Source of the DNA: Curvibacter sp. PAE-UM
GTDB lineage: Bacteria; Pseudomonadota; Gammaproteobacteria; Burkholderiales; Burkholderiaceae_C
Assembly: GCF_001432305.1 (NCBI RefSeq)
Contig: NZ_KQ483358.1
Span: 1,186,881-1,250,880 of the forward strand
Direction of reading: 5' to 3'
DNA: 64,000 nt
In this document: positions 26,427 to 37,567 of the stretch, in pieces
How positions within the stretch are numbered: position 1 is the stretch's first letter
How the letters are laid out: every line of letters begins with the position of its first letter
Translations under genes and position numbers: made by a program
The notes under the pieces: generated by a model
The model's database searches: none
Told to the model about the DNA's origin: nothing
The model's input: the letters and a program-made list of their open reading frames with translations, nothing else

Positions 26427-26801
26427 ATGAGCAAGCGTTCCATCCAGGCGACCCCGTCCACTGTCACCGAGCCGGACCAGGTTTTCGAGCTGGCAGCGGA
26501 GGTTTTTCGTGTCATGTCGGCGCCCATGCGGCTCAAGATCATCAGCCACCTCTGTGATGGCGAGCGCAACGTGAGTTATCTGCTGAGCAAGATCGACACC
26601 ACCCAGCCCAATATGTCGCAGCACCTGACCACGCTGTACCAGGCCGGCGTGCTGGGCAAGCGGCGCGAGGGCGTGCAGATCTACTACCGCATCATCGACG
26701 ACCGTGTCTCATCGCTGTGCCGTGCTGTGTGCACCCAGATCGCCATGGATGCGGACTTCGAGTCCCCCATGGCCGAACCTACGGCCTCGCCGGCGACCTG
26801 A
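26427..26801 (+). CDS. ArsR-family transcriptional regulator, probable sulfur/persulfide sensor
   Basis: This 124-residue winged-helix protein is of the ArsR family. Core features are APMRLKIISHL near residues 32-42, the recognition region QPNMSQHLTTLYQAGVLGKRREG near 60-82 and YYRIIDD near 86-92. It lacks the ArsR ELCVCD metal motif. Instead it has C43 in SHLCDGERNV and C98/C102 near the C-terminus. C43 and the C-terminal cysteines sit close to where SqrR/BigR-type persulfide sensors carry their redox pair. The sulfur genes that follow support that role, though the immediate neighbours are an iron permease and, across a terminator, a DsrE-like gene. The sensing function is inferred. Confidence 0.8.
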   Translation: MSKRSIQATPSTVTEPDQVFELAAEVFRVMSAPMRLKIISHLCDGERNVSYLLSKIDTTQPNMSQHLTTLYQAGVLGKRREGVQIYYRIIDDRVSSLCRAVCTQIAMDADFESPMAEPTASPAT

Positions 26802-26864: not shown

Positions 26865-27302
26865 TCAGGGCTTCAGGTAGACGTAACCTTCTTGCGCTTG
26901 CAGACGTGCTACCTCGGCCACGCCCGAGGGCACGATCTTGGTTTCCATCAGCAGGCGATCCGGGTTGATGTTGCGCACCGTCAGCGTGTTGTTGCAGACG
27001 CGGAACTCGACGCCCTTGCCAGCCAGGTCGCTGACGGTGCCGCTGAATTCCCGGCCCTGGCTGTCCTTGGCGTCCTGCAGCAGGAAATTGATGCCCGGGC
27101 CGTGCGTCACCACCACGATCTTGGCTTTCGGATCCGCGTTCATGTGATTGCGGATGTTGTTCAGGATGGCCGGGACCGTGTTGACATCGGTGTTGACGTG
27201 GTAGACCGCCTTGACCTGCTGCGTGGCCTGGGCCTGTGCCGCAGACGTGAAACCCAAGGTGGCCGCGCAGGCCAGGGCAAGGGTGGCGATGAATTTGTAC
27301 AT
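26865..27302 (-). CDS. Exported DsrE/DsrF-like sulfur-relay protein
   Basis: This 145-residue protein has a clear signal peptide (about residues 1-25, ending AAQAQA) followed by a DsrE-like fold: VYHVNTD, NNIRNHM, IVVVTHGPGINFLLQ, GVEFRVCNNTL and a C-terminal GYVYLKP. A single cysteine, C103, matches the position of the sulfur-carrying cysteine in DsrE-like proteins. Most characterised DsrE proteins are cytoplasmic, so the signal peptide implies periplasmic sulfur carriage. ATG 27302 is preceded by AGGAG. It lies downstream of the sulfide dehydrogenase flavoprotein, separated by a terminator-like structure. Confidence 0.78.
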   Translation of the reverse strand: MYKFIATLALACAATLGFTSAAQAQATQQVKAVYHVNTDVNTVPAILNNIRNHMNADPKAKIVVVTHGPGINFLLQDAKDSQGREFSGTVSDLAGKGVEFRVCNNTLTVRNINPDRLLMETKIVPSGVAEVARLQAQEGYVYLKP

Positions 27303-27328
27303 GAGCAACTCCTGAACTCGTCGACAAG

Positions 27329-27384: not shown

Positions 27385-28671
27385 TCAGAGCAGTGTATCC
27401 GCCCAGATGTTCTGCGCCCAGTTCATGGCGTAGATACCCTCGAGCTCGTTGGGGGCGCTGGACACGCCACCCGAACCCGCCACGGTCTTGAAGGTCTTTT
27501 CTTCGGCAACGTACTGATGGACCGAGGCCACGTGCACCACCAGCTTGTCGTTGACGAAGCTGTAGCAGGTGTTGGTCAGCAGCGGCTGCGGGTTCACGTC
27601 CATGCCCGAGAGCTGGGCCACCACGGCTGCGGCGACCACCTTGCCGTGCGAGTTGGCCATGTGTCCGGACTTGGGCATCAGCGGGGCGGCGAGCACCGAG
27701 TCGCCGATCACGTGCACATCCTTGGCGGCGGTGGACTCGAAGGTCTGGTAGTTCACGTTGCACCAGCGGCCGTTGGCGTTGGCCAGGCCCGATTGCATGG
27801 CGATGAGACCGGCGCTCATATTGGGCAGCACGTTGAGCACGTCGGCCTTCACGTCGTCCGAAGTCTCGAACTTGACGGTCTTCGTCTTCGCGTCGACGGC
27901 GACGGCCTTGTGGTTGCCGCGGAACTCCAGCATGCCGGCGTAGTTCTCGGCCCAGAACTTCTTGAACAGCGGGCCCTTGGAGGTCACGTCCGGGTTGGCA
28001 TCCAGGATCAGCACCTTGGATTTGGGCTTGGCCTTCTTGAAGTAGCTGGCCACCTGGCTGGCGCGTTCGTAGGGGCCGGGCGGGCAACGGTAGGGCGCCA
28101 ACGGGACCGAGATGGCGTAGACGCCGCCGTCGGGCATGGCTTCGAGCTGGCGACGCAGCGCGATGGTCTCGGGACCGGCTTTCCAGGCCTGCAGGATCTG
28201 GCCCGAGGCGCTGGCGTCCTTCAGCCCCTCGATGCTGCCCCACATGAAGTCGACGCCGGGCGAGACGATCAGCTTGTCGTAGCCGATGGTGGCGCCGCCG
28301 GCCAGGGTGACCGTCTTCTTGCCGCGGTCGATTTCCGTGACGCGGTCGCGCGCGTGGATCACGCCATGCTTGCTCTTGAGGTTGTCATAGGGCGTGGTGA
28401 TGTCGCCCATGGTCTTGGAGCCGCCGATCACCAGGTTGGAGATCGGGCAGGAGATAAAGCTGTCGTTGGGCTCCACCAGCACCACGTCGATCTGGTAGTT
28501 GGAGAGCATGCGCACGTATTTGGCGGCGGTGGCACCACCATAACCGCCGCCGATCACCACCACCTTGGCCTTCGAAGGGATGGTGGCGGTGGTGGCACAA
28601 CCCACCATGGAAAGGCTGCCGCCCAGGGTGCCGAGCGCGAGGGAGGCCTGTACAAAACTGCGTCGTTTCAT
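27385..28671 (-). CDS. fccB: Flavocytochrome c sulfide dehydrogenase flavoprotein subunit (FccB/SoxF type)
   Basis: This 428-residue periplasmic flavoprotein should oxidise sulfide and pass electrons to a cytochrome c. It starts with a Tat-type signal (MKRRSFVQASLALG), then the FAD dinucleotide fold VVVIGGGYGGATAAKYVR near residues 37-54. The redox cysteines of the family are present: C75 in SFISCPISNLVIGG and C369 in LTNTCYSFVND. FAD-binding VIGDS follows the expected order. The cytochrome gene lies 13 bases upstream, the normal two-subunit arrangement. SoxF-like function with other thiol substrates is also possible. Confidence 0.9.
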   Translation of the reverse strand: MKRRSFVQASLALGTLGGSLSMVGCATTATIPSKAKVVVIGGGYGGATAAKYVRMLSNYQIDVVLVEPNDSFISCPISNLVIGGSKTMGDITTPYDNLKSKHGVIHARDRVTEIDRGKKTVTLAGGATIGYDKLIVSPGVDFMWGSIEGLKDASASGQILQAWKAGPETIALRRQLEAMPDGGVYAISVPLAPYRCPPGPYERASQVASYFKKAKPKSKVLILDANPDVTSKGPLFKKFWAENYAGMLEFRGNHKAVAVDAKTKTVKFETSDDVKADVLNVLPNMSAGLIAMQSGLANANGRWCNVNYQTFESTAAKDVHVIGDSVLAAPLMPKSGHMANSHGKVVAAAVVAQLSGMDVNPQPLLTNTCYSFVNDKLVVHVASVHQYVAEEKTFKTVAGSGGVSSAPNELEGIYAMNWAQNIWADTLL

Positions 28672-28684
28672 GATGCTGGTCTCC

Positions 28685-29008
28685 TTAGCGCTTGAGGGTC
28701 GAGAAATAGGTGGAGACAGTCTCGATCTGCTGGTCGGTCAGTCCCTTGGTCAGCTGGTGCATCACGGTGGCCGGACGCGTGCCTTCGCGGAAGGCCTTCA
28801 TCTGCGCCACCATGTATTCACGCGGCATGCCGGCCAGCGAAGGGATGGCCGAACCTTCGGTGGTACGGCCCTCGGTGCCGTGGCAATTGGCGCAGGTGGC
28901 GGCCAGCGCACGCTGGTGCAGCTTGACGGTGTCCTGCGGCGTCGCGGCAAAGGCGGTGCAGGCAAAGCCGCCAAGTAGCAGCGCTGCCCAATGGGATTTG
29001 AAGTGCAT
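28685..29008 (-). CDS. fccA: Small monohaem cytochrome c (sulfide dehydrogenase cytochrome subunit)
   Basis: This 107-residue exported cytochrome has a signal peptide (about residues 1-22) and one haem site, CANCH at 39-43, with a likely methionine ligand near residue 63 or in the REYMVAQM segment. It resembles the single-haem cytochrome partner of flavocytochrome c sulfide dehydrogenase rather than the larger dihaem form. It starts the fccAB pair and should accept electrons from the flavoprotein encoded 13 bases downstream. I chose ATG 29008 because the longer in-frame start adds a non-signal stretch. Confidence 0.85.
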   Translation of the reverse strand: MHFKSHWAALLLGGFACTAFAATPQDTVKLHQRALAATCANCHGTEGRTTEGSAIPSLAGMPREYMVAQMKAFREGTRPATVMHQLTKGLTDQQIETVSTYFSTLKR

Positions 29009-29138: not shown

Positions 29139-30251
29139 TCAGGGTGCCTGCATGTTAGCGGTTGTTCCGGCGACTTGCTGGGCGGCTGTCGGCACGGTTG
29201 CCTGACTGTCCATCAGGCGGTCGGTCAGGCCGGCGCCGGCCCACATGCCGATCAGCGCCAGCCAGGCGGTGAGCGCGAACACCGCACCGCCGGTCATGCC
29301 GGCGCCCACGGCGCAGCCGCCCGCCAGCATGGAGCCGAAGCCCATGAGCATGGCGCCCGCGATGTAACGACGCATGCTGTAGCCATCCTGGAAGCCTTCG
29401 AGTTTGAACTCCTTGCCCACCAGGGCGCCGATGAAGGAACCGGCGAACACCCCGGGCAGCAGGCCGAAGTCGAAACCGATGTGCGGCGCCGGCGAGGACA
29501 GCACGCGCATCAGCCATTCGGCCGAGGGCCCGCTGAAGGTCAGTCCCTGCACTTGCACGGCCACCGCGCCAAAGCTGTTGGAAGAGATCAGGTGGGTGTA
29601 CCACCAGCCGGCTGCCACGGCCAGGCCGGTGCCGATGCCGCCCACCCATTTCCACAAACCCCAGCCGCTGCGGATGGCAAAGTAGAGCGCGGCGGCAAAC
29701 CACAGCAGGCCAAAGGCCAGGCCGCCCCAGTGGCCGATGCCCGTGATGGCCAGCAGGTCGCGCGTGGGGCCGCCTTCCACCGTCCACCAGCTGCTGATGG
29801 TGTTGCGCAGCGGCGCCAGCGAGCCCGAGAGCGCGGCCTGTGCCGTGACGGCGAAGATCAGGCCCGAGAGCAGGGCGCGCAGATTGCCGTTGGCCGAGAG
29901 CACCAGCAGGCGGCTGGCGCAGCCGCGCGTCATGATCATGCCGGCGCCGAAGAGCAGGCCGCCGATCAGCGCGCCCGACAGGCTGCCGCGCGCGGCGATC
30001 TGGCGTGCCGTGCTGGTGTCCAGCGCCTGCAGCACGATCAGCCCCTGCACCAGCACCACCGCGGTGGAGAAGGCCAGCAGCCAGACCGAGAGCTTTTCGC
30101 CGAATTTTTGGTGCCAGAACTCGATGGTGGCGGCGCGCAGGCAGAATTTGGAGCGCTGGGCGAAAAACCCGAACAGCAGGCCGATGACGCCGCCGCCGAT
30201 GGCGAGCACCAGGCTTTCGCCATGCTGCTCAAGAATGGTTGCCAGGTTCAT
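29139..30251 (-). CDS. YeeE/YedE-family sulfur transporter (SoxT/TsuA-like)
   Basis: This 370-residue membrane protein belongs to the YeeE/YedE family, whose bacterial member TsuA imports thiosulfate through conserved cysteines. Three such cysteines are visible: C37 in AQRSKFCLRAA, C111 in MTRGCASRL and C313 in AGGCAVGAGMTGG. About ten hydrophobic segments are present. Its size matches SoxT proteins found with sulfur-oxidation genes. It lies upstream of fccA on the same strand, and its promoter region is shared with the divergent metallo-beta-lactamase-fold gene. Thiosulfate is the best-supported substrate by analogy only. Confidence 0.88.
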   Translation of the reverse strand: MNLATILEQHGESLVLAIGGGVIGLLFGFFAQRSKFCLRAATIEFWHQKFGEKLSVWLLAFSTAVVLVQGLIVLQALDTSTARQIAARGSLSGALIGGLLFGAGMIMTRGCASRLLVLSANGNLRALLSGLIFAVTAQAALSGSLAPLRNTISSWWTVEGGPTRDLLAITGIGHWGGLAFGLLWFAAALYFAIRSGWGLWKWVGGIGTGLAVAAGWWYTHLISSNSFGAVAVQVQGLTFSGPSAEWLMRVLSSPAPHIGFDFGLLPGVFAGSFIGALVGKEFKLEGFQDGYSMRRYIAGAMLMGFGSMLAGGCAVGAGMTGGAVFALTAWLALIGMWAGAGLTDRLMDSQATVPTAAQQVAGTTANMQAP

Positions 30252-30366
30252 GGAGCTGCACCATAATTTAGTAATTGCTTATATTGGATGCTAAACATAA
30301 TTGCATCGTAGCGGCTTGACCCACCTCAAGACAAGGCTGGTCTTGCGGTCCCGGAATGGAGTTGGA
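30252..30366. promoter_or_regulatory. Divergent promoter region between YeeE and MBL-fold genes
   Basis: This 115-base gap is markedly AT-rich in its first half. On the minus strand a TATAAG hexamer is visible at 30278-30283, a fair -10 element. On the plus strand CATAAT at 30296-30301 is a candidate -10. The sequence CTTATATTGGAT here resembles CTTATATTAGGAT just upstream of the ArsR-family gene (26405-26417), so the same regulator may act at both. No strong -35 element is seen. Confidence 0.4.
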
Positions 30367-31335
30367 ATGCGTACGAGTGGAATGGATGCCCGCCCCTGGG
30401 GGGCCAGGCTGATGGCGGCCGCTCTGGGCCTGCTGCTGGTGGCCGGGGTTCGGGCCGAAGCGCCCGCCATGGTGGCGCAGCAGGTGGCGCCCTCGGCCTG
30501 GTACGTCGAAGGCGTCTCGGCCCTGGGCTCGTCGGCCAACCAGAACTTCATCTCCAACGCCGCCTTCGTGGTGACGCCGGCCGGTGTGGTGGTGATCGAC
30601 GCCCTGGGCTCGCCGGCGCTGGCCGAGCGCCTGCTGGCCGAGATCCGCAAGGTCACGCCCCGGCCCGTCACGCACGTCATCGTCACGCATTACCACGCCG
30701 ACCACATCTACGGCCTGCAGACCTTCAAGGCCAAGGGGGCGCGCATCATCGCGCATGGTGCCGCCAAGGCCTACATGAACTCCGAAACCGCGCGCCTGCG
30801 CCTGGAGGCCTCGCGCGTGGAACTCGCGCCCTGGGTCGATGAGGACACCCGCCTGGTCGAGGCCGACGAATGGCTCGATGGTGACAGGACGCTCACGATC
30901 GGCGGGGTGGATTTCCAGATCCGCATCGTCGGCCCTTCGCACACGCCGGAAGACCTGGTGGTCTACCTGCCCTCGGAGAAGGTGCTGTTCGCCGGCGACC
31001 TGGTCTTCCGCAGCCGCATCCCCTACGTGGGCCAGGCCGACAGCCGGCACTGGATCCTGGCGCTGGAAAAGCTGCTGGCCTTCGATGCCACCGTCATCGT
31101 GCCCGGGCACGGCCCGCTCTCGTACGAGGCGCGCAAGGACATGCAGCTCACGCGCGACTACCTGGTCTACCTGCGCGCCAGCATGGGCAAGGCCGCGGCC
31201 AACCTGGAGCCCTTCGACGAGGCCTACCAGAACACCGACTGGAGCCAGTTCGAACACCTGCCCCTGTTCCGCGTGGCCAACCGCATGAACGCCTACAACA
31301 CCTACCTGCTGCTCGAACAGGAGGGGGGCAAATGA
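30367..31335 (+). CDS. Exported metallo-beta-lactamase-fold hydrolase (SoxH-like)
   Basis: This 322-residue protein has an N-terminal signal segment (about residues 12-32) and a metallo-beta-lactamase fold. The metal-binding motif is VTHYHADH (H108, H110, D112, H113), with a downstream histidine in GPSHTPEDL, an aspartate in LFAGDLVF and a final histidine in VPGHGP. Exported MBL proteins of this type, such as SoxH, occur in sulfur-oxidation clusters, but their substrate is not established. ATG 30367 follows GGAG. Its stop overlaps the next start, so it is coupled with the thioredoxin-like gene. Confidence 0.82.
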   Translation: MRTSGMDARPWGARLMAAALGLLLVAGVRAEAPAMVAQQVAPSAWYVEGVSALGSSANQNFISNAAFVVTPAGVVVIDALGSPALAERLLAEIRKVTPRPVTHVIVTHYHADHIYGLQTFKAKGARIIAHGAAKAYMNSETARLRLEASRVELAPWVDEDTRLVEADEWLDGDRTLTIGGVDFQIRIVGPSHTPEDLVVYLPSEKVLFAGDLVFRSRIPYVGQADSRHWILALEKLLAFDATVIVPGHGPLSYEARKDMQLTRDYLVYLRASMGKAAANLEPFDEAYQNTDWSQFEHLPLFRVANRMNAYNTYLLLEQEGGK

Positions 31336-31808
31336 AGCGCCAGGGCCTTGCGCGGCGCGACCTGCTGCTGGTCGCGGCCACGCTGCCGCTGGCCCTGGCC
31401 CTGGGCCCGGCACAGGCGGCCGAACTGCCGGCGGCGCACAACCTCAAGGAAGAGCTGGCCTCTGCGCTGGCCCGGCGTGAACCGCTGGTCGTCATGGTGA
31501 GCCTGGAGGGCTGCCCCTTCTGCAAGATCGCGCGCAACAACTACCTGGCGCCCATGCACCAGCAGGATGGCCTGCACGTGGCGCAGGTGGACATGCGCAG
31601 CCGCACCCGCGTGCTGGACTTCCAGGGCAAGGCCGTCACGCACGACGACTTGGTCAGACAGTGGAAAATCCGCATCGCACCCACGGTGCTTTTTTTCGGG
31701 CGGGGCGGCGCCGAGGTGGCCGAGCGACTGGTGGGCGGCTACATCCCCGATTTCTACGGCGCCTACCTCGACCAGCGCCTGGAGCAGGCGCGCGCCAGCC
31801 TGCGCTGA
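31332..31808 (+). CDS. Exported thioredoxin-like protein (SoxW-like)
   Basis: This 158-residue protein has a signal peptide (about residues 1-30) and a thioredoxin fold with active site CPFC at 61-64 in SLEGCPFCKIARNNYL, plus the cis-proline segment RIAPTVLFFG. It is probably a periplasmic thiol-disulfide reductant, comparable to SoxW, which keeps sulfur-carrier cysteines reduced. It overlaps the upstream MBL-fold gene by four bases. Other DsbC/DsbD-linked roles cannot be excluded from sequence. Confidence 0.82.
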   Translation: MKRQGLARRDLLLVAATLPLALALGPAQAAELPAAHNLKEELASALARREPLVVMVSLEGCPFCKIARNNYLAPMHQQDGLHVAQVDMRSRTRVLDFQGKAVTHDDLVRQWKIRIAPTVLFFGRGGAEVAERLVGGYIPDFYGAYLDQRLEQARASLR

Positions 31809-31871: not shown

Positions 31872-31893
31872 AATATGCCCCCTAGGGTATATT
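31872..31893. promoter_or_regulatory. Putative operator downstream of the YeeE promoter
   Basis: The arms AATATGCCC and GGGTATATT form a near-perfect 22-base inverted repeat centred about 12 bases beyond the predicted transcription start. Its position would block transcription when bound, as expected for a repressor. The AT-rich outer arms fit ArsR-family operators. The ArsR-type regulator at 26427 is the obvious candidate. Confidence 0.55.
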
Positions 31894-31927: not shown

Positions 31928-32464
31928 GTGGAAATTTCCAATGCCTGCGAAGCGCCAGGCAGCAAGCCCTACTGGCCGGCCTGGCTGGCCGGTCTCGCGC
32001 TGGGCGTGGTGCTGCTGCTGACCTTCATCCTGACCGGCCATGGCCTGGGCGCCACCGGTTTCACCACCCGTCTGACGGCCTGGCTTGGCGACATCGCCGC
32101 GCCGCAGTGGACCCTGGCCAATGATTACCTCGGCCCCATGGTCGAAGACGGCGCCGTGCTGTCCTCTTGGATCAGCTGGCAGGTGCTGGGTGTCTTCCTT
32201 GGCGCGCTGGTCTCGGCCTGGCTGGCCGGCCGCCTGGCCTGGCGCATCGAAGGCGCGGCGAGTTCCGGCCGTACCGGCCGCCTGCTCAAGGCCCTGGCCG
32301 GCGGCATCCTGGCCGGCATCGGCGCGCGCATCGCCGCCGGCTGCACCAGCGGTGTAGGCCTGTCGGGCGCAGCGGTGCTCAGCGTGGCCGGTTTCGTTTT
32401 TCTCGGTGCCTTCTTCGCCGCCGGCCTGATCGCCGCGCGCCTGAGCGGTGGAGGTGTCAAATGA
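31928..32464 (+). CDS. Half-size YeeE/YedE-family membrane protein, first subunit
   Basis: This 178-residue membrane protein is one half of a YeeE/YedE-type transporter. It has four to five hydrophobic segments and the family cysteine in GARIAAGCTSGVGLSG. Translation starts at GTG 31928 after a TTGGAG. Its TGA overlaps the ATG of the next gene (ATGA). Paired half-size YeeE genes are known, for example as PmpA/PmpB, so this is not a frameshifted long gene. The partner supplies the matching cysteine motifs. It probably moves a sulfur species across the inner membrane. Confidence 0.85.
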   Translation: MEISNACEAPGSKPYWPAWLAGLALGVVLLLTFILTGHGLGATGFTTRLTAWLGDIAAPQWTLANDYLGPMVEDGAVLSSWISWQVLGVFLGALVSAWLAGRLAWRIEGAASSGRTGRLLKALAGGILAGIGARIAAGCTSGVGLSGAAVLSVAGFVFLGAFFAAGLIAARLSGGGVK

Positions 32465-33021
32465 TCGAGACGTTCATCGCCATCCTGCTGGGTTTCGGTT
32501 TCGGATTCGTGCTCGAGCGCGCCGGTTTCGGCAGCGGCTGCAAGCTCACCGCCCAGTTCCGCCTGACCGACTGGTCGGTCTTCAAGGTCATGTTCGGCGC
32601 CATCGTCTTCACGGCGGTCGGTCTTTATGTGCTGGAGCTGGCCGGCCTGGTGGAAGCCGCAGGCATCTACGTGCCCATCCCCTATCTGTGGGCCATCGCC
32701 GCCGGTGGCGCGCTGATCGGCGCCGGTTTTGCCGTGGGTGGCTATTGCCCCGGTACCTCGGCCGTGGGCCTGATGACCGGCCGCATCGATGCCATCGTGT
32801 TTTTTGTCGGCCTGTTCATCGGCACCTTCATTTTTGCCGGCTTCTTCCCGCAGTTCGACGCGCTCACGACCGCCGGCGAGTTCACCAAGGGCGACCGTCT
32901 GCCCGAAGCGTTGGGTGTGCCCGAGTGGCTGGTGCTGGTCGCCATGGTGGGCGCAGCCGTGGGCGTGTTCGTGCTCGGCGGCTGGTTCGAGCGCCGCGCG
33001 CGTGCGGCCGGCCAGGTCTGA
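32461..33021 (+). CDS. Half-size YeeE/YedE-family membrane protein, second subunit
   Basis: This 186-residue partner of the preceding protein has cysteines in ERAGFGSGCKLTAQFR near residue 27 and VGGYCPGTSAVGL near residue 94, both characteristic of the family. Five or so membrane segments are visible. It starts inside the stop codon of the first half, so the two are made in a fixed ratio. The secreted NPC-repeat protein follows 25 bases later with a good AGGAG site, suggesting one transcript. Confidence 0.85.
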   Translation: MIETFIAILLGFGFGFVLERAGFGSGCKLTAQFRLTDWSVFKVMFGAIVFTAVGLYVLELAGLVEAAGIYVPIPYLWAIAAGGALIGAGFAVGGYCPGTSAVGLMTGRIDAIVFFVGLFIGTFIFAGFFPQFDALTTAGEFTKGDRLPEALGVPEWLVLVAMVGAAVGVFVLGGWFERRARAAGQV

Positions 33022-33046: not shown

Positions 33047-33358
33047 ATGAAGCATCCCCGCAACACCCTGGCCCCGCTGGTCTCGGCCCTGGCCCTCGCC
33101 CTGGGCGCCGTGCCTGTCGCCGCCGTGGCGCAGTCTGCTGAAACCCCGGCCCGCGCCGCCAACCCCTGCGCGGGCAACCCCTGCGCCGGCAGCAAACGCC
33201 GCAGCCGCGCCGACAACCCCTGCAGTGGCAATCCCTGCGCCGGTTCCAAGCGTCGCAGCCGTGCCGACAACCCGTGTGCGGGCAACCCCTGTGCCGGCAA
33301 GAGCCGCCGCCGCAGTGGTGACGACAGCGCTCCCGAGGCCGGCAAGAAGAGCCGCTGA
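33047..33358 (+). CDS. Secreted small protein with three NPCxGNPCAG repeats
   Basis: This 103-residue protein has a signal peptide (about residues 1-29) and a mature part built from three repeats of NPCxGNPCAG joined by basic SKRRSRAD linkers. Its six cysteines lie at 41/46, 59/64 and 77/82, so each pair is Cx4C with an 18-residue period. Nothing else in the protein looks folded. I do not recognise a characterised family. The clean signal peptide, AGGAG site and position between YeeE transporters and an exported rhodanese suggest a periplasmic sulfur or metal carrier, but this is inference. Confidence 0.75.
   Translation: MKHPRNTLAPLVSALALALGAVPVAAVAQSAETPARAANPCAGNPCAGSKRRSRADNPCSGNPCAGSKRRSRADNPCAGNPCAGKSRRRSGDDSAPEAGKKSR
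33161..33310 (+). repeat. 54-base in-frame tandem repeat encoding NPCxGNPCAG units
   Basis: Three copies of a 54-base unit encode the cysteine repeats of the secreted protein at 33047-33358. Synonymous differences between copies (for example in the NPC and CAG codons) show the repeats are maintained as protein rather than as identical DNA. The third copy has a shorter basic linker. Confidence 0.8.
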
Positions 33359-33369
33359 GCGGAGCCATC

Positions 33370-34023
33370 GTGGCCGCCCTCGCCTCGCATGACGTCACCG
33401 GGCGCGCCGCGCATGGTGCGCTCGCGCGGCAGTTGCGCCTGGCCCGCCAGGGGCGCTCCATGCTGTTTCCCTTCATCGGGCGCAGCGCACGCTTCGAGAT
33501 CTGGGCGCACTACCCGCGCCACGACGCCATCGATACCAGCGGTCGCTGGCAGTTCTATTTCCATGCGCATGACCGCTCTGAGCCGGACAGCGCACGCCAT
33601 CCGCAGGAGCATGGCCACATCCACCTGTTCCGCCGCAGCCCGCAGGGCAAGCTCACGCACTTCGCCGGCCTGGCGCTGGACGCACGTGGCCTGCCCCTGT
33701 GCTGGTTCGCCACCAACCAGTGGGTGACCGGCGAACGCTGGGCGGATGCAAGCTCGCTGGGGCGCGAGCTGCCCGGCTTCGAGTTGCGCCTGCGCGGCCC
33801 GCTGAGTGGCGCCGGCCTCTGGCTGGGCGACATGGTGCGTTTTTATGCCGCGCCGCTGCGCCAGATGCTGCTGCAGCGTGACCAGGCTTTGGAGCGGCAT
33901 TGCACGCGCCATCGTCAGACCCGGGCGCAAGCCTGGGCTGACCGGCGCGTGGCTGTCTGGAGTTCCCACCCCGTGAACTGGCCGCACGACGCCTTGCTGG
34001 CAGCCGGTTCCCTGACTCAATGA
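33370..34023 (+). CDS. Uncharacterised His-rich protein in the sulfur cluster
   Basis: This 217-residue protein has no signal peptide or membrane helix, so it is probably cytoplasmic. Its most striking part is a histidine-rich centre, WQFYFHAHDRSEP near residues 60-72 and EHGHIHLFRR near 80-89, which looks like a metal site. Tryptophans in CWFATNQWVTGE and a basic C-terminal helix follow. It may belong to the uncharacterised family I know as DUF6969, but I cannot verify that. It starts at GTG 33370, 11 bases after the NPC-repeat gene, and is followed 19 bases later by the rhodanese, so it is part of the operon. Confidence 0.65.
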   Translation: MAALASHDVTGRAAHGALARQLRLARQGRSMLFPFIGRSARFEIWAHYPRHDAIDTSGRWQFYFHAHDRSEPDSARHPQEHGHIHLFRRSPQGKLTHFAGLALDARGLPLCWFATNQWVTGERWADASSLGRELPGFELRLRGPLSGAGLWLGDMVRFYAAPLRQMLLQRDQALERHCTRHRQTRAQAWADRRVAVWSSHPVNWPHDALLAAGSLTQ

Positions 34024-34042
34024 TTCTTAACAGGAGATGCAG

Positions 34043-35041
34043 ATGAAGACACACATCCGTTACCTAAGCGCCGCTGCCCTGCTGGGCCTGGCTACGCTGG
34101 TCCCGACCTTGGCCCTGGCCTTGAACGTGCCCGGCCCCGTGGTCGACGGCGCATGGCTGGCCCAGAACCGCGCAGACGTCACCGTGCTCGACGTGCGCGC
34201 CAATCCCAAGACTTTCACGCTCACGCCCGAGTTCGAGACCGACAAGAAGACCGGCAAGAAATTCCTGGTCGAACTGGGTGGCCACATCGATGGCGCCGTG
34301 CTGGTGGACAACAAGAAGGTGCGCGTGGACCGCACCATCAACGGCCTGACCGTCAAATCCATGATCCCCGAACGCGCCGACTTCGAGAAGCTGGTGCGCA
34401 GCTGGGGTGTGTTGGCCGGCCGTCCCATCGTGATCGTCTCGGCCGGCATGGAGCCGATCGACTTCAACGATGCCGCTCGCCTGTACTGGCAGTTCAAGGT
34501 CTACGGTGAAGACAACATCGCCGTGCTCAACGGCGGTACCGCCGGCTGGATCGCCCAGGGGCGTGAAGTCAGCAGCGCCGCCGTCAAGGCCGCCGAAGGC
34601 AACTGGGCTTCCAAGGCCGACCGCACGGCCGAACTGATGGCCACTTCCGACGACGTGGCCAAGGCCCAGGCCGACAAGTCGGCCCAGCTGGTCGATGCCC
34701 GTGACGATGCCCATTACCTGGGCCTGAGCAAGAGCAGCAGCACCAGCGCCGCCGGCCACGTGGCGGGTGCCAGGAACGTCTTCACCGGCCTGATGTCCAC
34801 CCAGGGCGGCGACGCTGCACGCCTGCTGGGTGCCGACACCTATCGCGATGTCTTCAAGCTCAGCGGCCTCGATGCGCAGGCAGCTTCGATCGCCTACTGC
34901 AACACCGGTCACCAGGCTTCGGGCACATGGTTCGTGCTCCACGAGATCGTCGGCAACAAGAACGTCAAGCTCTACGACGGTTCCATGCACCAGTGGACCC
35001 TGGAGAAGCGTCCCACCGTCTCGGTGTCGCTCGCCAAATAA
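34043..35041 (+). CDS. Exported tandem rhodanese (thiosulfate sulfurtransferase)
   Basis: This 332-residue protein has a signal peptide (about residues 1-28) and two rhodanese domains. The N-terminal domain lacks a catalytic cysteine (IVSAGMEPID), as in structural rhodanese halves. The C-terminal domain has C286 in AYCNTGHQASGTW, the active loop. It should transfer sulfane sulfur from thiosulfate or persulfides to acceptors in the periplasm. ATG 34043 follows AGGAG; an ATG two codons earlier is less well placed. It ends the rightward sulfur operon, and no clear terminator follows. Confidence 0.87.
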   Translation: MKTHIRYLSAAALLGLATLVPTLALALNVPGPVVDGAWLAQNRADVTVLDVRANPKTFTLTPEFETDKKTGKKFLVELGGHIDGAVLVDNKKVRVDRTINGLTVKSMIPERADFEKLVRSWGVLAGRPIVIVSAGMEPIDFNDAARLYWQFKVYGEDNIAVLNGGTAGWIAQGREVSSAAVKAAEGNWASKADRTAELMATSDDVAKAQADKSAQLVDARDDAHYLGLSKSSSTSAAGHVAGARNVFTGLMSTQGGDAARLLGADTYRDVFKLSGLDAQAASIAYCNTGHQASGTWFVLHEIVGNKNVKLYDGSMHQWTLEKRPTVSVSLAK

Positions 35042-35592: not shown

Positions 35593-35883
35593 ATGAGCGG
35601 AGCTCGTTTTGAGTGGGATGCCAGCAAGGATGCCGAGAACCAGCGCAAGCATGGCGTGAAGTTTGCGCTGGCGCAGTACGCGTTCGCCGATCCTCGCCGG
35701 GTGATCGCGGAAGACCTGACGCACAGCCAGGACGAACCGCGGCACTACTGCTTCGGTGAGGTGGACGGCGGCATCCTGACGGTGCGCTTCACCTGGAGAG
35801 ACGGCGTAATCCGTATTTTTGGCGCCGGTTACTGGCGCAAAGGCAAGGCTATTTATGAACGCGAAAATCAAATACAGCAATGA
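35593..35883 (+). CDS. brnT: BrnT-family toxin
   Basis: This 96-residue protein matches the BrnT toxin family, RelE-fold ribonucleases that block translation. Typical parts are FEWDASKDAENQRKHGVKFA near residues 6-25, the DPRRVIAED segment, and the C-terminal TVRFTWRDGVIRIFGAG stretch. The usual RISARRA ending is modified to RIFGAGYWRKGKAIYE. It overlaps the downstream antitoxin gene by 29 bases, the expected toxin-first order of brnTA. The toxin is probably functional, though the variant end is worth noting. Confidence 0.82.
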   Translation: MSGARFEWDASKDAENQRKHGVKFALAQYAFADPRRVIAEDLTHSQDEPRHYCFGEVDGGILTVRFTWRDGVIRIFGAGYWRKGKAIYERENQIQQ

Positions 35884-36124
35884 GCCACTGGGCGAGGTTC
35901 GCGTGGTGCGTGACTTTCTGCCGCCGCCCGAAGAACTGGCCTACCGCGAAGAAGGCGTCAAGGTCACGCTGGCCTTGAGCAAGAGGAGTGTGGATTTTTT
36001 CAAGGCTGAGGCCGAGAAACACCACACGCAGTACCAGCGCATGATCCGGCGCCTGGTGGATGCCTATGTGGAGGGGCATGTAGCTGCGAAGAAATCCCGA
36101 CCGACCAGTCGAGCGAAATCATGA
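35855..36124 (+). CDS. brnA: BrnA-family antitoxin
   Basis: This 89-residue protein should neutralise BrnT and repress the operon. Its C-terminal half has the ribbon-helix-helix pattern VKVTLALSKRSVDFFKAEAE near residues 34-53 followed by the YQRMIRRLVDAYV helix. ATG 35855 lies inside brnT, so the genes are coupled. It ends six bases before the GTG that could start the next gene. The N-terminal part would be the region wrapping around the toxin by family precedent. Confidence 0.8.
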   Translation: MNAKIKYSNEPLGEVRVVRDFLPPPEELAYREEGVKVTLALSKRSVDFFKAEAEKHHTQYQRMIRRLVDAYVEGHVAAKKSRPTSRAKS

Positions 36125-37180: not shown

Positions 37181-37567
37181 TTGAAAGAGATCTATTCGAA
37201 ACTGCCTTTGGTCTATGCGTGTTCCGGCTGCTCCAATGCAGCGCAGTTGGCCAATACGCTGGCGGTTCGTCTCGACCGGGAGCAAAAAGCAGAGATGTCC
37301 TGTAGTATCGCCGGGGTGGGTGGTGACGTCCGCGCCCTGCTGAAAACAGCCCGCTCCGGGCGCAAGATTCTGGTGCTGGACGGCTGCCCTCTGCATTGCG
37401 CCCGAAGCTGCCTGGCGCGCCATGCCATCGAGCCCAGCGCGCATGTCGACCTGTCGCAATTCGGCGTGAGGAAGAATTTCCACCAGGACGCCGAACCCCA
37501 GGTGGTGCAGGAAGTCTGGACCCGGGTTGTCCTTCCGGCGCTTGGCCAGTTGACGGCAGCGGCCTAA
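37181..37567 (+). CDS. Cysteine-rich putative zinc-binding protein (DGC family)
   Basis: This 128-residue protein matches the DGC-type putative zinc-binding family. It has LVYACSGCSNAAQ (C14, C17), MSCSIAGVGG (C41) and the name-giving LDGCPLHCARSC (C69, C73, C77). Its function is not established; family members are often next to metal or redox genes. Translation probably starts at TTG 37181, five bases after AGGAG, since no ATG fits. No signal peptide is present. Six cysteines in 128 residues suggest metal or sulfur chemistry in the cytoplasm. Confidence 0.8.
   Translation: MKEIYSKLPLVYACSGCSNAAQLANTLAVRLDREQKAEMSCSIAGVGGDVRALLKTARSGRKILVLDGCPLHCARSCLARHAIEPSAHVDLSQFGVRKNFHQDAEPQVVQEVWTRVVLPALGQLTAAA

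Follow-up and report, generated by a model that had tools for sequence, protein, structure and literature searches.

The window, i.e. the whole stretch of DNA that was analysed, comprises 64,000 nucleotides of the genome of Curvibacter sp. PAE-UM. As listed in Table 1, it holds a gene for a small, putatively exported protein with NPC repeats. The open reading frame starts with ATG at 33047, and the last base of its stop codon is 33358, giving 103 residues. The precursor N-terminus, MKHPRNTLAPLVSALALALGAVPVAAVA followed by Q, resembles a Sec signal by eye, and three NPCxGNPC blocks lie on a basic chain with a repeat step of 18 residues. Translation confirmed the preliminary description of 33047-33358, which had reported exactly this make-up of a signal peptide (by eye) and three NPCxGNPC blocks of period 18 on a basic chain. 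It had also placed the gene between half YeeE genes and a rhodanese gene. The YeeE halves do lie upstream and the rhodanese downstream, but a gene coding for a DUF6969 protein (33370-34023) had been overlooked and is the next one, starting 11 bases past the mini-protein stop, between the mini-protein and the rhodanese.

Table 1 Features of the mini-protein locus, with positions in the window
Feature	Position	Strand	Basis or remark
ArsR-family regulator, neighbour	26427..26801	+	Pfam
DsrE-like protein, neighbour	26865..27308	-	Pfam
Flavocytochrome c sulfide dehydrogenase (FCSD) flavoprotein, neighbour	27385..28671	-	Pfam
Cytochrome c, neighbour	28685..29008	-	Pfam
Full-length YeeE/YedE transporter, neighbour	29139..30251	-	Pfam
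SoxH-related metallo-beta-lactamase-fold protein, neighbour	30301..31335	+	TIGR04559 below cut-off
Thioredoxin-like protein, neighbour	31332..31808	+	Thioredoxin_2 26.6 bits, just below cut-off 27
Candidate operator TATGCCCCCTAGGGTAT, palindrome-like, upstream of operon	31874..31890	+	Once in genome
Half YeeE/YedE, PmpA-like	31928..32464	+	PF04143 C-terminal half, profile 175-308 of 310
Half YeeE/YedE, PmpB-like	32461..33021	+	PF04143 N-terminal half, profile 2-151 of 310
NPC-repeat exported mini-protein	33047..33358	+	103 aa precursor; ORF, translation, homologue comparison
Sec-type signal peptide, residues 1-28, cleavage between AVA and Q	33047..33130	+	By eye
Block 1 NPCAGNPC, C41 and C46	33161..33184	+	Sequence
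Block 2 NPCSGNPC, C59 and C64	33215..33238	+	Sequence
Block 3 NPCAGNPC, C77 and C82	33269..33292	+	Sequence
DUF6969 protein (PF22308), GTG start, 217 aa	33370..34023	+	152.1 bits, cut-off 27
Rhodanese, N-terminal signal by eye, loop CNTGHQAS	34037..35041	+	Pfam

The candidate operator TATGCCCCCTAGGGTAT lies downstream of a TATACT box, and a genome search allowing at most one mismatch returned this single site. By eye, 9 of 10 close relatives carry the site, with no more than one change, upstream of the YeeE half gene. GGGTATNTNACCC was considered as an operator common to the FCSD promoter and rejected, being not above chance. The SoxH-related protein (30301-31335) fell under the cut-offs of both quinoprotein-relay models. 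The own genome encodes SoxY, a family of known sulfur carriers, three times, which weighs against the reading favoured below.

To place the mini-protein among known families, it was compared with Pfam, in which no model matched at E ≤ 1, so that it has no SoxY/SoxZ domain. In NCBIfam, the only line at E ≤ 1 was BufA2, with 11.5 bits against a cut-off of 60 and an E-value of 0.27. The DNA pattern of NPCxGNPC occurs in three copies in the own genome, every one of them inside the mini-protein gene.

A family search (200 genomes, E ≤ 0.01) gave 45 match rows in 39 genomes, from which 30 loci were taken and 15 rows left out. An NPC-repeat homologue was found in 12 of the 30 loci (L004-L012 and L014-L016, own locus included), while the other 18 were without an NPC-repeat ORF. 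In all 12, the gene order was YeeE half, YeeE half, NPC protein, DUF6969 and rhodanese. A scan of named genomes by a DUF6969 pattern gave 414 stretches and 350 relatives, of which the best 80 were used. An NPC ORF was defined here by at least three [NKST]PC motifs, an end at most 700 bases upstream of DUF6969 and the same strand. Such an ORF was present upstream of DUF6969 in 80/80 loci, a set that is biased because the query alignment was built from loci derived from the NPC protein and the best 80 of 350 relatives were used; no further ORF in these loci satisfied the rule (10,789 ORFs scanned in all). The split YeeE pair was found in 74/80 loci and the rhodanese in 75/80, on the same strand and within 3.5 kb (again the best 80 of 350 relatives), so the sulfur-gene neighbourhood on which the preliminary description relied is conserved. 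Neither was seen in a Parvularcula MAG (L090), whose stretch begins about 440 bases before DUF6969 and thus leaves the upstream side unseen, or in three Coxiellaceae MAGs (L097, L102, L112).

The homologues also showed which part of the protein is kept. A hydrophobic, signal-like start was present in 79/80 by a simple hydrophobicity rule. The residues preceding Cys were NP in 337 of 384 cases whereas the linkers vary, and the cysteines are in this sense conserved between homologues, as had been anticipated. The regular cysteine pairs of the preliminary description did not hold up as fixed pairs: the repeat region has 3 to 13 Cys, with an odd number in 14 of 79 homologues (leaving out L090, whose ORF runs into the contig end), and fixed disulfide pairs were rejected on this account. 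The medians for the repeat region were a net charge of +7 and zero F, W, Y, I, L, V or M, and from such a composition the chain is expected to be disordered, with the cysteines as its main conserved chemistry. Among the 80 relatives, NPC is spelled by 16 codon combinations in 348 copies, indicating that a protein motif is kept and not a DNA repeat. A fast-evolving low-complexity ORF without function would suit the repeats and the lack of an expected fold. We give this explanation practically no credence and rejected a chance or low-complexity ORF, in view of the synteny in 12/12 family homologues, the 80/80 pairing in the biased set, the synonymous spelling of NPC and the confinement of the DNA pattern to the gene.

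The pairing with DUF6969 was further examined in 398 genomes drawn across the phylum (own included), of which 20 carried DUF6969, with 21 genes. Because the NPC-shaped rule missed a CGAKC ORF at one locus (L218), a motif-free rule was written, requiring a hydrophobic N-terminus, at least four Cys in 50 residues and a Cys-containing tripeptide occurring three times; it was drawn up after the phylum-sample loci had been viewed. The 21 stretches, of 2.4 to 16 kb each, contained 2,469 ORFs, and 18 of them matched. Fifteen of the 18 were on the DUF6969 strand at a distance of 1 kb or less and served 13 genes; another three were on the opposite strand at 1.26-1.45 kb, and none was found beyond 1.45 kb in these stretches. 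By this rule, 16 of the 21 DUF6969 genes have an exported Cys-repeat ORF within 1.5 kb. Two genomes (G438, G585) showed weaker Cys-repeat ORFs near DUF6969 by eye. In G279, DUF6969 is at a contig end and an NPC protein is close to the end of another contig. No Cys-repeat ORF was found near DUF6969 in G215, which has an NPC protein elsewhere in its genome, or in G360. The repeat types near DUF6969 differ (NPCAxx, KPCAAK, CGAKC), and the Cys-repeat proteins of G284, G570 and G585 resemble lipoproteins.

DUF6969 is also carried by plasmids, with 167 matching records. The pair was present in four of six plasmid loci examined (two from S. meliloti, one from Ciceribacter and one from B. glumae), the S. 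meliloti order being sulfurtransferase, YeeE, Cys-repeat ORF and DUF6969; no Cys-repeat ORF was seen near DUF6969 in the two Azospirillum plasmids. At the genome level, at least three NPC-pair matches occurred in 11/20 DUF6969 genomes versus 18/378 others (Fisher p 4.5e-9, with the threshold of three picked after seeing the data), and at least one in 14/20 versus 92/378 (Fisher p 3.9e-5), the genomes being not independent in either test. Across Pseudomonadota, the two genes were paired in most loci examined. The usual position of a Cys-repeat protein beside DUF6969 suggests that the two form a hitherto undescribed system for the production of a cysteine-rich carrier or buffer.

To characterise the partner, 68 diverse DUF6969 sequences were aligned, and P49, H65, H67, E80, G82, H83, H85, H97, N116, V119, R170 and D171 were invariant. 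No Cys was invariant in these sequences, which makes a role of DUF6969 as a sulfurtransferase unlikely. A known maturase or RiPP-recognition domain was likewise not found in the 68 trimmed members. An AlphaFold2 model from 64 of the 68 rows reached a pLDDT of 94.5 and a pTM of 0.90. In this model, a predicted strand carries H65, with H67 immediately past it; the next strand carries H83 and H85, and the one after that H97. Conservation together with strand position points to a putative clustered metal site. With neither DUF6969 model did Foldseek find a PDB entry at E ≤ 0.001; alpha-carbonic anhydrases recurred with the second model from E 0.26, which is not significant, and the best E-value of the DUF6969 profile against PDB sequences was 0.64. 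A search of the available literature found no mention of DUF6969, and NPC-repeat strings returned unrelated matches only. By eye, the DUF6969 protein (33370-34023) has no signal peptide, and its contact with the precursor would therefore have to precede export.

We tentatively favour the reading in which the mini-protein and DUF6969 form a two-gene module, with the mini-protein as its exported part; DUF6969 would mature a thiol carrier or buffer whose cargo here is probably sulfane sulfur. DUF6969 would be a cytosolic metalloprotein that acts on the precursor, at its Cys repeats, ahead of Sec export, by analogy with the MNIO enzymes that act on bufferins. That it acts on the precursor before export is likely. 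Its action would most plausibly be a chemical modification, for which the prospects are reasonable though short of good, and otherwise thiol loading or protection. In the periplasm, the exported chain, flexible and polycationic, would carry or buffer thiophilic cargo by means of its thiols. Sulfane sulfur would be the first candidate for the cargo in the own operon, an assignment that is possible and somewhat doubtful; it would be passed between sulfide/thiosulfate oxidation (FCSD, rhodanese) and the split YeeE importer of PmpAB type. Read in this way, the finding points to sulfur oxidation, and it offers a function hypothesis both for the uncharacterised Pfam family DUF6969 and for this type of exported Cys-repeat protein.

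The cysteines of the mini-protein might also carry persulfide, a role raised in the preliminary description, and do so unmodified; the protein would then be a periplasmic sulfane-sulfur carrier for which DUF6969 is only a chaperone or quality factor. The conserved YeeE pair and rhodanese and the adjoining FCSD and DsrE-like genes are in keeping with this explanation; however, a plain chaperone would not need the invariant His/Glu set of DUF6969, and the module is found in non-sulfur contexts too. We regard it as unlikely. The proposed carrier would resemble SoxYZ as an exported protein with sulfane sulfur on Cys. SoxYZ has one Cys, on a C-terminal arm, whereas the mini-protein has many on a chain without a hydrophobic core and without a SoxY/SoxZ domain.

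The two upstream genes are halves of the YeeE family, to which PmpA/PmpB and SoxT/TsuA belong; PmpA/PmpB correspond to the transporters adjoining the mini-protein gene, not to the mini-protein. The available part of a report on PmpA/PmpB (PMC11582611) describes them as YeeE halves, calls sulfur import into the cytoplasm poorly understood and mentions no such repeat protein. It also assigns one PmpAB/SoxH gene set to alcohol catabolism instead of sulfur, which calls for caution with arguments from context.

NPC repeats also occur apart from DUF6969. Eighteen NPC-rich genomes had no DUF6969, 15 of them in family f39, two in f37 and one in f38. When 13 NPC-rich genomes of f39 and f37, neither of which is the own family, were searched, none had DUF6969 over the cut-off: in 12 there was nothing at E ≤ 1, and the remaining one gave sub-threshold fragments. 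NPC repeats thus exist without DUF6969, which counts against the favoured reading. Nine of 11 loci from these genomes hold an NPC protein with a haem motif. The NPC-haem loci L192, L193, L195, L196, L197 and L211 are from genomes without DUF6969 over the cut-off, and by eye several NPC-haem genes of such genomes adjoin genes resembling multihaem cytochromes. We scanned 11 NPC-haem proteins, six from genomes with DUF6969 and five from genomes without it. The result showed that 10 of the 11 match PF21342 (SoxA/TsdA cytochrome c) over the cut-off. In five, a short stretch also matched CCP_MauG over the cut-off, and for three of these the E-value was better than that for SoxA/TsdA; the L115 protein weakly resembles cytochrome P460. 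SoxA and TsdA handle thiosulfate, and these matches are therefore a hint, not proof, of sulfur chemistry. The CCP_MauG matches make the thiosulfate link of the NPC-cytochrome fusions a weak one, and our estimate for sulfane sulfur as the cargo was lowered on their account.

Such fusions raise the possibility that the chain is a partner or tether of cytochromes: as a flexible basic tail, or as a protein on its own, it would dock redox proteins, and its cysteines would form reversible disulfides. NPC repeats are indeed fused to haem proteins of SoxA/TsdA or CCP_MauG type, also where DUF6969 is absent. But the mini-protein of the window has no haem motif and DUF6969 would be left unexplained, and we consider this explanation improbable. 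Other genes were seen at the NPC-cytochrome loci: a DUF3179 protein in L222 (Pfam) and L228 (by eye), a YiiX-like amidase in L229 (Pfam) and L228 (by eye), and an ECF-like sigma factor in L222 and L229 (both Pfam).

Sulfane sulfur, arsenite and mercury are alike in reacting with thiols, and genes for the latter two were found within about 6 kb of other members, namely ACR3 (L227), MerA with a MerR-family regulator (L228) and arsenosugar genes (L229, L182, L218). The interpretation given in the preliminary description was borne out in part: the sulfur neighbours are conserved, but DUF6969 is the most constant partner, and the module also lies beside arsenic, mercury and cytochrome genes. The arsenic and mercury genes suit metal binding equally well. 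As a soft-metal buffer, the thiol-rich chain would chelate Cu(I), As(III) or Hg(II) in the periplasm and shield sulfur and haem enzymes from harm. Apart from these gene contexts, this explanation could draw on the ArsR-family regulator nearby, which could sense metal, and on the copper buffering ascribed to bufferins, which are of similar make-up, in the available part of PMC12452194. However, no metal transporter or reductase was found among the 16 window proteins scanned with Pfam, and the local gene set is mostly sulfur-related. A soft-metal buffer, too, is not likely. Metallothionein-like Cys-rich chains have many thiols and little fold. The mini-protein is like them in both respects; it differs in being exported, in its NPC spacing, in having a partner gene and in matching no Pfam model.

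On the B. glumae plasmid (L182:5505-6597), an 89-aa exported ORF with CGAKC/CAPKC repeats and DUF6969 were found in an arsenosugar cluster, which also holds a thioredoxin, CcdA, a sigma factor and a zf-HC2 protein.

The system closest in design is that of the bufferins. The available part of PMC12452194 describes bufferins as Cys-containing precursors that are exported by Sec and undergo modification by MNIO together with DUF2063. Some members are cytochrome c fusions or lipoproteins, and CxxxxC motifs characterise one of the groups. The groups compared here were Buf1/DUF2282, Buf2, EGKCG and CxxxxC, with MNIO (PF05114) and DUF2063 as partners and oxidised, copper-binding cysteines as their feature. 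The mini-protein shares with them a Sec signal (by eye) on a Cys-motif precursor, and its blocks have the spacing C-x4-C, as in the CxxxxC group. In both systems the gene of a cytosolic partner adjoins, for a metal enzyme in bufferins and, in DUF6969, for a protein with a putative metal site. Cytochrome fusions and lipoprotein-like variants occur among the Cys-repeat proteins as well. Unlike in bufferins, DUF6969 takes the place of MNIO at the mini-protein locus, and the setting is sulfur, not copper.

Strict bufferin identity was rejected on the features tested. None of the available bufferin family models matched the mini-protein over the cut-off, BufA2 being the best, and neither DUF2063 nor DoxX turned up in the 16 window proteins searched with Pfam. 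MNIO is absent from the locus: the sole match in the genome is at 699,846, while the window starts at 1,186,881. The mini-protein could still be the substrate of an MNIO acting in trans. At a distance of 0.5 Mb, the own genome encodes a BufA1-like protein and an MNIO, and sizeable proportions of bufferin precursors are encoded away from MNIO genes according to the available part of PMC12452194. Against this, an MNIO match (E ≤ 1e-10) was found in 11/20 DUF6969 genomes and was missing from 9/20, compared with 134/378 other genomes having one; MNIO was present in 2 of 128 partly overlapping loci, and no available bufferin model matched. A substrate of MNIO in trans is thus very improbable.

A wider form of the favoured module can be proposed from these comparisons. 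DUF6969 may represent a class of cytosolic metalloenzyme that is new and has no relation to MNIO. It would post-translationally modify Cys in the NPC, KPC, CGAKC and CAAGC repeats of Sec-exported or lipid-anchored proteins, and the modified thiol proteins would form a new family that serves sulfane sulfur and soft metals across Pseudomonadota. We put this forward with reserve, as conceivable. If DUF6969 does modify cysteines, there would be a further route besides MNIO to exported modified Cys proteins.

Two loci show bufferin genes themselves. In the own genome, the separate locus L217 (G000:C1:699846-700688) has the BufA1-like ORF (by eye) beside MNIO. In L218:3110-7159, a DUF2282 bufferin, MNIO, DUF2063 and DoxX are directly followed by an exported ORF with CGAKC repeats and DUF6969, with ArsS near; a bufferin module and a DUF6969 module here lie side by side.

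Further downstream in the window, at 35593-36124, a BrnT-type toxin gene (PF04365) is followed by a small ORF, which had no Pfam match at E ≤ 0.001 and is presumably the antitoxin. A DGC-domain protein (PF08859) is encoded at 37181-37567.
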